64,000 nucleotides of DNA from Curvibacter microcysteis (lineage in GTDB: Bacteria > Pseudomonadota > Gammaproteobacteria > Burkholderiales > Burkholderiaceae_C), in contig NZ_JAQSIO010000002.1 of assembly GCF_028649455.1 (NCBI RefSeq), positions 186,001-250,000 of the forward strand, read 5' to 3'. Below are positions 10,839-14,058 of the stretch, piece by piece. The notes under the pieces were generated by a model. The model did not search any database, was not told the DNA's origin, and worked only from the letters and a program-made list of their open reading frames with translations. Made by a program: the position numbers and the translations under genes. Each line of letters opens with the position of its first letter. Position 1 is the first letter of the stretch.

Positions 10839-13019
10839 ATGTCTTATCTCGTGCTCGCCCGAAAGTACCGCCCCCGCAATTTCACTGAAATGGTGGGGCA
10901 GGAGCACGTCGTGCAAGCCCTGGGCAACGCCTTGCAGACCCAGCGCCTGCACCATGCCTACCTGTTCACCGGGACGCGAGGGGTGGGCAAGACCACGGTT
11001 TCCCGCATCCTGGCCAAGTCGCTCAACTGCGTGGGCGTGGATGGCCAGGGCGGCATCACCAGCAGCCCCTGTGGCGTGTGCCAGGCCTGCAAGGACATCG
11101 ACAGCGGTCGTTTTGTCGACTACACCGAGTTGGATGCCGCCTCCAACCGGGGCGTGGATGAGGTCCAGTCCCTGCTGGAGCAAGCGGTTTACAAACCTGT
11201 GCAAGGGCGCTTCAAGGTCTTCATGATCGATGAGGTGCACATGCTCACCAACACGGCTTTCAACGCGATGTTGAAGACCTTGGAAGAGCCGCCCGAGTAC
11301 CTCAAGTTCGTGCTGGCCACGACCGACCCGCAGAAGGTGCCGGTCACCGTGCTGTCACGCTGCTTGCAGTTCAACCTGCGTCCCATGGCCCCCGAGACCG
11401 TGCTGGAGCACCTGACCCAGGTGTTGGCCAAAGAGTCTGTGCCGGCCGAAGAGGGCGCCTTGCGCCTGCTCTCGCGCGCGGCGCGCGGCTCGATGCGCGA
11501 CGCCTTGTCCTTGACCGACCAGGCCATCGCCTTTGGCAGCGGCCAGTTGCAGGAAGCCGGCGTGCGCCAGATGCTGGGCAGCGTGGACCGCAGCCATGTG
11601 TTCCGCCTGATTGCTGCCTTGGCCGCCAGCGACGGCCGGGTGGTGGTGGAGACCGCCGACACCTTGCGTCTGAATGGCTTGTCCGCCGCGTCCACGCTGG
11701 AGGAGATGACTGCCGTGTTGCAGCGCATGGCCGTGTTCCAAGCGGTGCCCCAGATGGCCGCTGCAGTGGATCCCAGTGACGCCGAAGTGGTCGAAATGGC
11801 CCGCTTGGCCGGCTTGATGCCGCCCGACGAAACCCAGTTGCTCTACAGCATGTGCCTGCATGGCCGTGCCGAGCTGGGCTTGGCGCCGGACGAATACGCC
11901 GCTTTGACCATGGTGTTGCTGCGCTTGCTGGCGTTCAAGACCGCGCACGGAGGCCCCAAAGGCGCCTCTGTGTTGACGGCGCCTGCGGGCTTGGCTGAAA
12001 AAAAAACTCTGAATCCTGAGCCGGCGCCGGTTCAACGCCCGTCGGCTGTCCCCGCAGCGGCCCCCGTGGTGCCGCGCGTGGAGCCCACGCTGCCGACTCA
12101 GGTCGCGTCGGCTCCCGAGCCTGCGCCTCATCAGGCGGTGGCACCCGCCCCGGTAGCCGCCGCCCCGGTAGCCGCCGCTCCGGTGCCGGTGCCTGCACCA
12201 GAGCCGACGCCCGCAGCGCTCACCCCCCAGCCTGGCTCAGCGCCCCGGCCTGCGGCCCCCTCAGGCCCTGGTCCTGCGCCCAATCCCGTGCCTGTTCCCG
12301 CTGCGGCGCTTGCCCCCGAGGCGGACGATGACCGCTGGGGCGATGTGCTGCCCGAGGCCGCGCCGGAGGTGGACGAAGACGATGGCCCTCCGGACTGGGC
12401 CCAAGAATGGCCCGACGACGGCTCGGTGGTGTCCGCGCCGGTGGCTGTGCCAGGTCGGGCCTTGCCGGTGCGCGATCCCCAGTCCCCCGCGCCCCTGGCG
12501 GGCGCTGAACGCGCCGGGGCTGAAGCCCCCCAATTGCTGGCCGTGCCCGTGCGGGTGCAGCCCGAGCCAGGTGAGCGCACGGCCCAGCGTTACGACGTCC
12601 ATGCCGCCTCGCGCATCGACCCCAACTTCACTGACACCGAGGACGGCCGCTTTTGGCACGAGGTGGTGCAGCGCCTGGCGGCGGCCGAGGCCATCACCGC
12701 CCTGGTGCGTGAGCTGGCGCTTCAGTCGCAACTGGTGAACCGGGGCGGCGACGTGTGGACGCTGCGCGTGGAGCGCGATTCCTTGAACCAACCCAACAGC
12801 CGTGAACGCTTGCGTCAGGCCTTGCAGCAAGCGGGGCTGGCCCAACAGATCACGGTGGAGATCGGCTCGGTCACTGACAGCCCGGCGCGGCGCAACGCGG
12901 CGGCGGCCGCAGCGCGGCAGAAGCTGGCTGAGGACGTGATCTTGTCTGACCCCTTTGTGCAGTCCGTCATGCGGGACTTTGGCGCGAAAATCGTGCCTGG
13001 CAGCCTCAAGCCGGCCTGA
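10839..13019 (+). CDS. dnaX: DNA polymerase III subunits tau and gamma
   Basis: Clamp-loader ATPase subunit, 726 residues as tau. The AAA+ module shows P-loop GTRGVGKT at about 45-52, a zinc-binding set of four cysteines (64, 78, 81, 84), Walker B with MIDEVHML, and domain III to about residue 370. A long Pro/Ala-rich linker (about 390-510) with short repeats of PVAAA leads to the C-terminal domains that bind DnaB and the alpha subunit. An A9 run at codons 387-390 has stop codons just after it in both alternative frames, so a gamma form of 390-393 residues is predicted (separate entry). It is followed by ybaB and recR, a widely conserved order. Confidence 0.97.
11998..12019 (+). promoter_or_regulatory. 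Predicted slippage/frameshift site in dnaX (A9 run with flanking stops)
   Basis: Nine consecutive A residues occupy 11998-12006 in frame GAA AAA AAA ACT. Moving to the -1 frame, or adding one A to the transcript, reads AAC TCT GAA TCC then TGA at 12017-12019, giving a 393-residue product. The other frame reads CTC then TGA at 12010-12012, giving 390 residues. The position is the boundary between clamp-loader domain III and the linker, as for gamma subunits in E. coli (ribosomal frameshift) and Thermus thermophilus (transcriptional slippage on an A9 run). Use of the site in this organism is inferred. Confidence 0.75.
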
Positions 13020-13092: not shown

Positions 13093-13425
13093 ATGTTCAA
13101 CAAGGGACAACTCGCCGGCCTCATGAAGCAAGCCCAGGCCATGCAAGACAACCTCAAGAAGGCGCAAGAAGAGCTGGCGCACATCGAGGTCGAAGGTGAA
13201 TCGGGTGCCGGCCTGGTCAAGGTGCTGATGACTTGCAAGCACGATGTCAAGCGCGTCACCATCGACCCCAGTCTGCTGGCCGACGACAAGGACATGCTCG
13301 AAGACTTGGTCGCTGCCGCGTTCAACGCCGCGGTGCGCAAGGCCGAAGAAACGTCCGAACAGAAGATGGGCAAGCTCACCGCGGGCATGCCAGGTCTGCC
13401 GGGCGGCATGAAGTTCCCCTTCTGA
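13093..13425 (+). CDS. ybaB: YbaB/EbfC family nucleoid-associated protein
   Basis: Small DNA-binding protein, 110 residues, forming a dimer with a tweezer-like shape in characterised homologues. It begins [18 protein letters not shown] and contains a coiled N-terminal helix, the central strand region and a Met/Gly/Pro-rich tail ([12 protein letters not shown]), all typical. The ATG at 13093-13095 has AAGAAAGA upstream. It lies between dnaX and recR on the same strand, the standard three-gene arrangement. Confidence 0.95.
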
Positions 13426-13467: not shown

Positions 13468-14058
13468 ATGTCTGACACCCACTCGCTGGACGCGCTGATT
13501 GCGGCCTTGCGCCGTTTGCCTGGCGTGGGGCAGAAATCGGCGTCGCGCATGGCTTATCACCTGCTGCAAAACGACCGCGAAGGCGCTCAGTTGCTGTCGC
13601 GCGCCTTGCATGAGGCCAGCGCCAGCATGCGCCACTGCGAGCGCTGCCACACCTTCACGCAGCAGGCGGTGTGTGCCACCTGCCTGGACCCCAGCCGCGA
13701 CCTGAGCCGCCTGTGCGTGGTCGAGACGCCTGCCGACCAGGCAGCGCTGGAGCGCACCGCGGCCTACAAAGGCCTGTACTTCGTGCTGTTGGGCCGCATC
13801 AGCCCGCTGGACGGCATTGGCCCCCAGGACATCGGCATTGATTTGCTGTTCAAACGGGCCTGTGATGGCGTGGTCCAGGAGGTCATCCTGGCCACCAACT
13901 TCACAGCCGAAGGCGAGGCCACGGCCCATGTGGTCAGCGAAGGCCTGAAGTCGCGCGGGCTCAAGGTCACGCGCCTGGCCCGTGGCGTGCCCGTGGGCAG
14001 TGAGTTGGAGTACGTGGACCTGGGCACCATTGCCCATGCCCTGGCCGACCGGCGCTGA
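13468..14058 (+). CDS. recR: Recombination mediator protein RecR
   Basis: DNA-gap repair protein acting with RecF and RecO to load RecA, 196 residues. The N-terminal helix-hairpin-helix stretch ([20 protein letters not shown]) is followed by a C4 zinc finger (CERC and CATC) and a TOPRIM domain beginning [11 protein letters not shown]. The C-terminus [16 protein letters not shown] fits the family. The ATG has GGGAGG upstream. It is the last gene of the dnaX-ybaB-recR unit. Confidence 0.97.

Follow-up and report, generated by a model that had tools for sequence, protein, structure and literature searches.

The dnaX gene of the window and its run of nine adenines

The window, that is the whole stretch of 64,000 nucleotides of DNA that was analysed, contains a dnaX gene in one uninterrupted frame, which begins with an ATG at 10839 and finishes with a stop codon ending at 13019 (Table 1). 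The encoded protein scores 401 bits against TIGR02397 (cut-off 250), and Pfam recognizes the clamp-loader ATPase, domain III and domain V of tau. The gene is followed by two frames (13093-13425 and 13468-14058) that, from their position and general resemblance, are presumably ybaB and recR; this putative ybaB-recR order after dnaX is that of E. coli.

The central feature of the gene is a run of nine adenines (A9), read in frame as GCT GAA AAA AAA ACT CTG AAT. It starts at codon 387, approximately 53% of the way through the gene and about 20 codons past the Pfam domain III, which agrees with its placement near the boundary of domain III and the linker in the initial annotation. Reading of the sequence also confirmed that both of the other frames meet a TGA shortly after the run: the +1 frame continues as CTC TGA and the -1 frame as AAC TCT GAA TCC TGA. 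Messages containing eight, ten or eleven adenines are computed to give products of 390, 393 and 391 residues, respectively (about 42 kDa, compared with 76.9 kDa for tau), reproducing the 390-393 residues originally proposed for a gamma subunit.

Table 1. Features of the dnaX locus (positions are those of the window)
Feature	Positions	Strand	Basis
dnaX, full-length tau subunit, 726 aa, single open frame	10839..13019	+	ORF, TIGR02397, Pfam
DnaX domain III, aa 238-365, last domain of predicted gamma	11550..11933	+	Pfam PF12169
A9 run, proposed slippage site, in frame GAA AAA AAA ACT	11998..12006	+	sequence
In-phase heptamer A_AAA_AAA within the A9 run; would suit a ribosomal -1 shift (rival explanation)	11999..12005	+	
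TGA in the +1 frame; ends A8 / A11 messages at 390 / 391 aa	12010..12012	+	
TGA in the -1 frame; ends the A10 message or a -1 ribosomal shift product at 393 aa	12017..12019	+	
Tau domain V (alpha-interacting), aa 606-718, absent from predicted gamma	12654..12992	+	Pfam PF12170

The adenine homopolymer had been described as striking for such GC-rich DNA, and this description holds: it is the sole homopolymer of at least nine in the window, one A8 is the only other of at least eight, and dnaX itself is 68% GC. The complete 4.82-Mb genome contains eight A9 or T9 runs. Several of the others sit in extended open frames, although in DNA so rich in GC such frames are not necessarily genes. One of these (L134, G000:C2:565606-565614, outside the window) reads CAA AAA AAA ACC within an open frame of 703 residues that has many CxxC repeats and is zinc-finger-like by eye. 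That the A9 of dnaX is present by more than chance is not demonstrable from the window alone; at the level of sequence it is the relatives that demonstrate it.

Conservation of the run and of the stops in both alternative frames

A search of 150 genomes from the GTDB family of the window, its own genome included, gave 130 dnaX loci that were read, one per genome. The 20 genomes left out comprised contig fragments, weak matches and six genes that appear full-length but are distant (59-68% identity). Runs of at least six adenines were sought between residues 340 and 520. A9 is found in identical phase in 80 of the 130 loci, A10 and A8 in one each, and an in-phase A_AAA_AAG in two, while 46 have no A run of at least six in this region. 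A second set consisted of the best 80 named relatives, selected by protein similarity only and not by the run. Curvibacter is nearest (93%), followed by Acidovorax, Comamonas, Delftia, Variovorax, Rhodoferax, Hydrogenophaga, Ramlibacter and others. Here A9 is present in 77 of 80; of the three exceptions, two are Polaromonas, which have A_AAA_AAG, and the third is a Giesbergeria MAG that has no site. Where a run of at least six occurs in the region, the longest is exactly nine in 157 of 163 cases (80/84 in the family set, 77/79 in the named set).

For closer comparison, 159 genes were chosen by a run of at least eight adenines (A8-A10); the family and named sets share genomes, and 150 of the 159 are distinct. 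This choice in itself forces the two AAA codons, the adenines of the preceding GAA or CAA and part of the identity over the site, so that the claims of selection rest on the named set (77/80), the ninth adenine, the run length and the stops. Elsewhere in the same genes AAG is commoner than AAA (1539 against 843), and the two AAA codons kept in the named genes are therefore not a matter of codon bias. No such constraint applies to the ninth adenine, yet 158 of the 159 genes have it. The codon at this position is ACN in 132, AGY in 25, AAG in one and CCG in one. All 25 serine codons here are of the AGY type, whereas TCN is the commoner elsewhere (3452 against 1983). Mean pairwise identity, taken ungapped from the site, is 38% over the 42 nt upstream, 39% downstream and 93% over the 12-nt site. 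The reading phase of the run is fixed in the family; as slippage does not need a fixed phase, this is attributed to common descent.

Two other accounts of the conservation were considered and rejected. A conserved peptide motif does not fit, as the ninth adenine persists whether its codon specifies Thr, Ser or Lys, and the 13-residue peptides around the run vary, with 146 distinct among 159. Nor does a mobile or phase-variable tract, since a one-base indel in the DNA would remove tau, and no frame in the family or named set ends within a few codons of the run. Taken together, these sequence comparisons show that the A9 site is under strong selection at the nucleotide level. The initial annotation had proposed as much, and the check set beforehand, whether the run and stops are lost in close relatives, did not refute it: run, phase and both stops are kept in most sampled Comamonadaceae.

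The stops are no less striking than the run. Among the 82 A8-A10 genes of the family, a stop lies within 12 codons in the +1 frame in 79, in the -1 frame in 79 and in both in 76, one of the two being missing in the other six. By comparison, the expected number with both stops is 4.2 per 82 when downstream codons are shuffled, 9.7 on synonymous resampling and 4.4 at other places in the same linkers. Synonymous resampling gives the two stops different weights, predicting 55.2 genes per 82 with the +1 stop and 15.1 with the -1 stop, against 79 observed for each. The amino acids account in part for the +1 stop but not for the -1 stop: the residues after the run, mostly Thr-Leu with a next codon that begins with A, often spell CTG A. 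On its own the +1 stop is less surprising than the pair. Both stops lie within 12 codons in all 77 named A9 genes, and in the 150 distinct A8-A10 genes the +1 stop is found in 147, the -1 stop in 147 and both in 144. The +1 stop may be TGA, TAA or TAG, the -1 stop lies 3 to 22 codons away, and there are 149 distinct 30-nt contexts downstream of the run; such variety argues that what is kept is a stop and not a fixed sequence.

In the family tree, 44 of the 46 site-free loci fall on one side of a single branch (a weak branch, SH-aLRT 68; 92 for the nine of these loci that were used in a second tree). The other side contains all 82 A8-A10 genes, two genes with no run (L094 and L108) and the two A_AAA_AAG genes. 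The 44 loci of the site-free sister clade lie between L075 and L130, with A runs of at least six absent from residues 340-520.

An E. coli-like cassette in Polaromonas and genus g30

The A_AAA_AAG type of site belongs to two genera. One of them, g99, is assigned to Polaromonas by its place in the tree, where it shares one branch with the two named Polaromonas (SH-aLRT 100). Of its 31 genomes searched, 26 have a readable site region, the other five being fragments or without a dnaX match, and an in-phase A_AAA_AAG is found in 25 of the 26 (24 new loci and L027). The remaining locus, L380, has no A_AAA_AAG; it is only 71% identical and perhaps derives from a contaminating contig. In the second genus, g30, the cassette is present in 5/5. 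In Polaromonas it reads GGG AGY GCC GYC GAG CCN NNA AAA AAG CCN or a variant of this, and in both genera GGGAG precedes the heptamer by 15 nt, compared with 10 nt in E. coli. A near-identical cassette, GGGAGYGCCGYCGAGCCNNNAAAAAAGCC, is common to Polaromonas and g30 (L356-L379, L027, L265, L285, L105, L386-L389) with differing flanks, and GCCGYCGAGCC is conserved within it besides GGGAG and the heptamer. Matches to the pattern GAGCCNNNAAAAAAGCC occur in 45 of 399 family genomes, five of which coincide with known dnaX loci (four g30 genomes and G099). The free tree places Polaromonas and g30 apart from each other. On a 54-row subset, grouping all A_AAA_AAG rows (p-AU 0.862) or all A9 rows (p-AU 0.751) is not rejected, and both constrained trees scored better than the free tree.

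The two types of site differ in their stops. All 32 A_AAA_AAG genes of Polaromonas and g30 have a -1 stop within 6 codons, and only 10 of the 32 have a +1 stop within 12 codons, against 156 of the 159 A9-type genes (Fisher p 3e-18, which is not a true probability as the genes are related). A -1 stop at this distance is likewise present in 156 of the 159 A9-type loci. For a ribosomal -1 shift the -1 stop is enough, whereas slippage, by adding or dropping adenines, needs both, and on this reading each class would carry the stops that its mechanism requires.

The upstream sequence also separates the classes. In the 32 A_AAA_AAG genes the energy of pairing with the anti-Shine-Dalgarno (anti-SD) sequence is -7.6 kcal/mol, where control positions give -2.7; the mean z is -2.33, and z is below -1 in 32/32, over an interval (-26 to -4) chosen after GGGAG had been noticed and then scored in all 32 genes. 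A narrower interval with the E. coli spacing, which gave -6.9 for E. coli itself, finds no signal in the four A_AAA_AAG genes scored with it (z -0.57 to +0.25). In A9 genes upstream pairing is at background in either interval (mean z -0.12 for 158 genes with the wide one and -0.31 for 81 with the narrow one), a test made on the class and not on the window gene alone.

The initial annotation saw no convincing stem-loop of the E. coli type after the run, and the fold downstream of the A9 in the window is indeed no better than that of shuffles (z -0.10). Across A9 genes the downstream fold is a little more stable than that of control positions (mean z -0.47), and the z for a local hairpin is -0.43, compared with -0.96 in A_AAA_AAG genes; a hairpin of the A9 class would be a weak one.

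The contrast between the two classes is the best sequence evidence that the A9 run slips in transcription and that its neighbours frameshift on the ribosome. The view taken at the outset, that slippage in transcription is more likely than a shift of the E. coli type, gains support here from A9 genes that have no upstream SD-like signal, from the downstream fold in the window, which does not exceed that of shuffles, and from the ribosomal-type site at the same place in Polaromonas and g30. A tRNA-Lys with a CUU anticodon was considered as the determinant of the site type and rejected, as no clean pattern was seen among the genomes listed out of a set of 30, with a tRNA-like pattern as proxy. 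Of the A9 genomes, G000, G085 and G128 have a CTT copy and G114, G015 and G080 do not; four g30 genomes show only TTT; and CTT is present in four of the g99 genomes listed and absent from three.

Mechanism, known systems and wider distribution

The A9 run of dnaX is best explained as a site of programmed slippage in transcription, like that of Thermus dnaX, a reading to which a probability of about 0.75 is given from the sequence evidence. RNA polymerase would sometimes add or drop adenines on the run. Messages with nine adenines, or with nine plus or minus a multiple of three, would encode tau, and any other count would lead to the nearby stop in one frame or the other and so to a gamma-like subunit of 390-393 residues. 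As judged from the Pfam domains, such a product would retain clamp-loader domains I-III and lose the polymerase-binding C-terminal part, which in E. coli tau also binds the helicase. Slippage presumably occurs at a useful frequency, and gamma is probably both produced and functional. In keeping with this the run reaches beyond the heptamer and stays at nine; slippage has been reported on A or T runs of at least nine, and the Thermus dnaX run placed in E. coli shifts in both directions (PMC6260861).

The heptamer A_AAA_AAA within the run is in phase, and gamma might instead arise by programmed -1 ribosomal frameshifting as in E. coli, here without strong stimulators. The near -1 stop (156/159) is the more exceptional of the two under synonymous resampling, the slight downstream folding of the class points the same way, and the ribosomal-type site at the same place in neighbouring genera also favours this explanation. 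Such a shift would need, however, neither the +1 stop (156/159) nor the ninth adenine (158/159), and the A9 genes are without the SD-like signal. In addition, in the sets that were not picked by the run, A_AAA_AAG occurs only in the other class of gene (2/130 family loci, 2/80 named), plus within the longer run of L066, the single A10 gene of the family. Ribosomal frameshifting at the A9 is consequently considered unlikely.

Both stops could serve translation if ribosomes slid on the poly(A) lysine codons, since sliding can end in any frame; in an E. coli translation system, however, truncation was robust at A11 and little was seen at A9 or A10 (PMC4363877), and the run in the window has just two full AAA codons, which makes this very improbable. 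It is equally hard to regard the stops as fail-safes against accidental loss of frame, with the A9 kept for another reason (a Glu-Lys-Lys peptide, for example) and gamma as a by-product. Out-of-frame stops near a slippery run would presumably limit waste as well, but a synonymous AAG or TCN could break the run and it is unbroken in 77 of the 80 named genes, the surrounding peptide is variable and two neighbouring lineages bear a ribosomal-type site instead.

The site in the window resembles that of Thermus thermophilus, in which an A9 in a single tau frame, with stops close by in both other frames, yields a truncated gamma (PMC1088944, PMC5009743). Slippage is reported for Thermus and proposed for the window gene, and the likeness is to the published description of the Thermus site, not to its sequence. 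Thermus belongs to another phylum and its run lies seven-eighths of the way through the gene (PMC1088944), compared with about 53% here. E. coli dnaX (L239) is similar in that the same gene carries an A-rich site past domain III with a near -1 stop and a predicted short product. It differs in its A_AAA_AAG, preceded at 10 nt by an SD-like element, and in its stop in the -1 frame, whereas the window has A_AAA_AAA inside an A9 and near stops in both frames, and its class has no SD-like signal. The sites of Polaromonas and g30 resemble that of E. coli apart from the 15-nt spacing of GGGAG. Poly-A runs of 7-10, with slippage proposed, are also described in the two-ORF dnaX genes of the GeneTack survey (PMC3711429); in those genes, as they are described, a shift is needed to make tau, whereas in the window tau is the 726-residue single frame and a shift would give gamma. 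In Caulobacter gamma arises independently by proteolysis of tau, a route described with no recoding site (PMC5009743, PMC4456610).

According to one review (PMC3290774), dnaX frameshift signatures are absent from most non-enterobacterial bacteria, and these may produce no gamma; a second regards the frameshift route as apparently confined to enterobacteria, Thermus and Caulobacter representing other routes (PMC4456610). A survey nevertheless includes frameshift genes for dnaX from Vibrio and Neisseria (PMC3711429). Against these reviews stands a signature that is conserved in most sampled Comamonadaceae. Slippage that truncates a protein is described as difficult to detect comparatively, since it opens no long stretch of new coding sequence (PMC1088944), and the paired stops get round this difficulty. 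Slippage as a mechanism is known from Thermus; judging from the sequences, the site of the window is an unusually well-conserved example, and what was not expected is the ribosomal-type site of the neighbouring genera. Among open-licence papers no account was found of the distribution in Comamonadaceae or of the exchange of sites, and an earlier mention may exist elsewhere.

Sites of the A9 type are also found beyond the family. Among 120 genomes from the order 60 loci were read, and among 94 from the class 40, a few of these loci being cut by contig ends (L203 ends before the linker). A run of at least nine adenines at residues 345-440 is present in 10 of the 100, in all three phases. Nine of these ten runs are followed within 12 codons by a stop in each of the two other frames, whereas 2.3 would be expected from the frequency elsewhere in these genes (Poisson-binomial p 4e-7). 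In family f50 all seven loci read, the founding locus included, have A9 with an immediate -1 stop, and a near +1 stop is present in five. Family f13 has A10 in five of the eight loci read, again counting the founding locus; in the other three, short loci with 318, 405 and 430 residues read, it was not seen. A9 or A10 sites with two stops occur sporadically elsewhere in the class.

On balance, gamma production is probably old and actively kept in Comamonadaceae, with its mechanism exchanged (A9 slippage in most genera, ribosomal frameshifting in Polaromonas and g30) and the point of truncation almost unmoved; A9 and A10 sites would have arisen repeatedly in the class, so that a short DnaX may be selected far more widely than reviews allow. 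As closely related genera seem to arrive at one product by two mechanisms, the purpose of gamma and the interchangeability of the mechanisms could be tested in cultivable relatives. In f13 (L402-L406) the A10, read as GAA AAA AAA AAG CTG A with both stops present, lies just before a conserved RDDW stretch and further down the gene than the run of Comamonadaceae.
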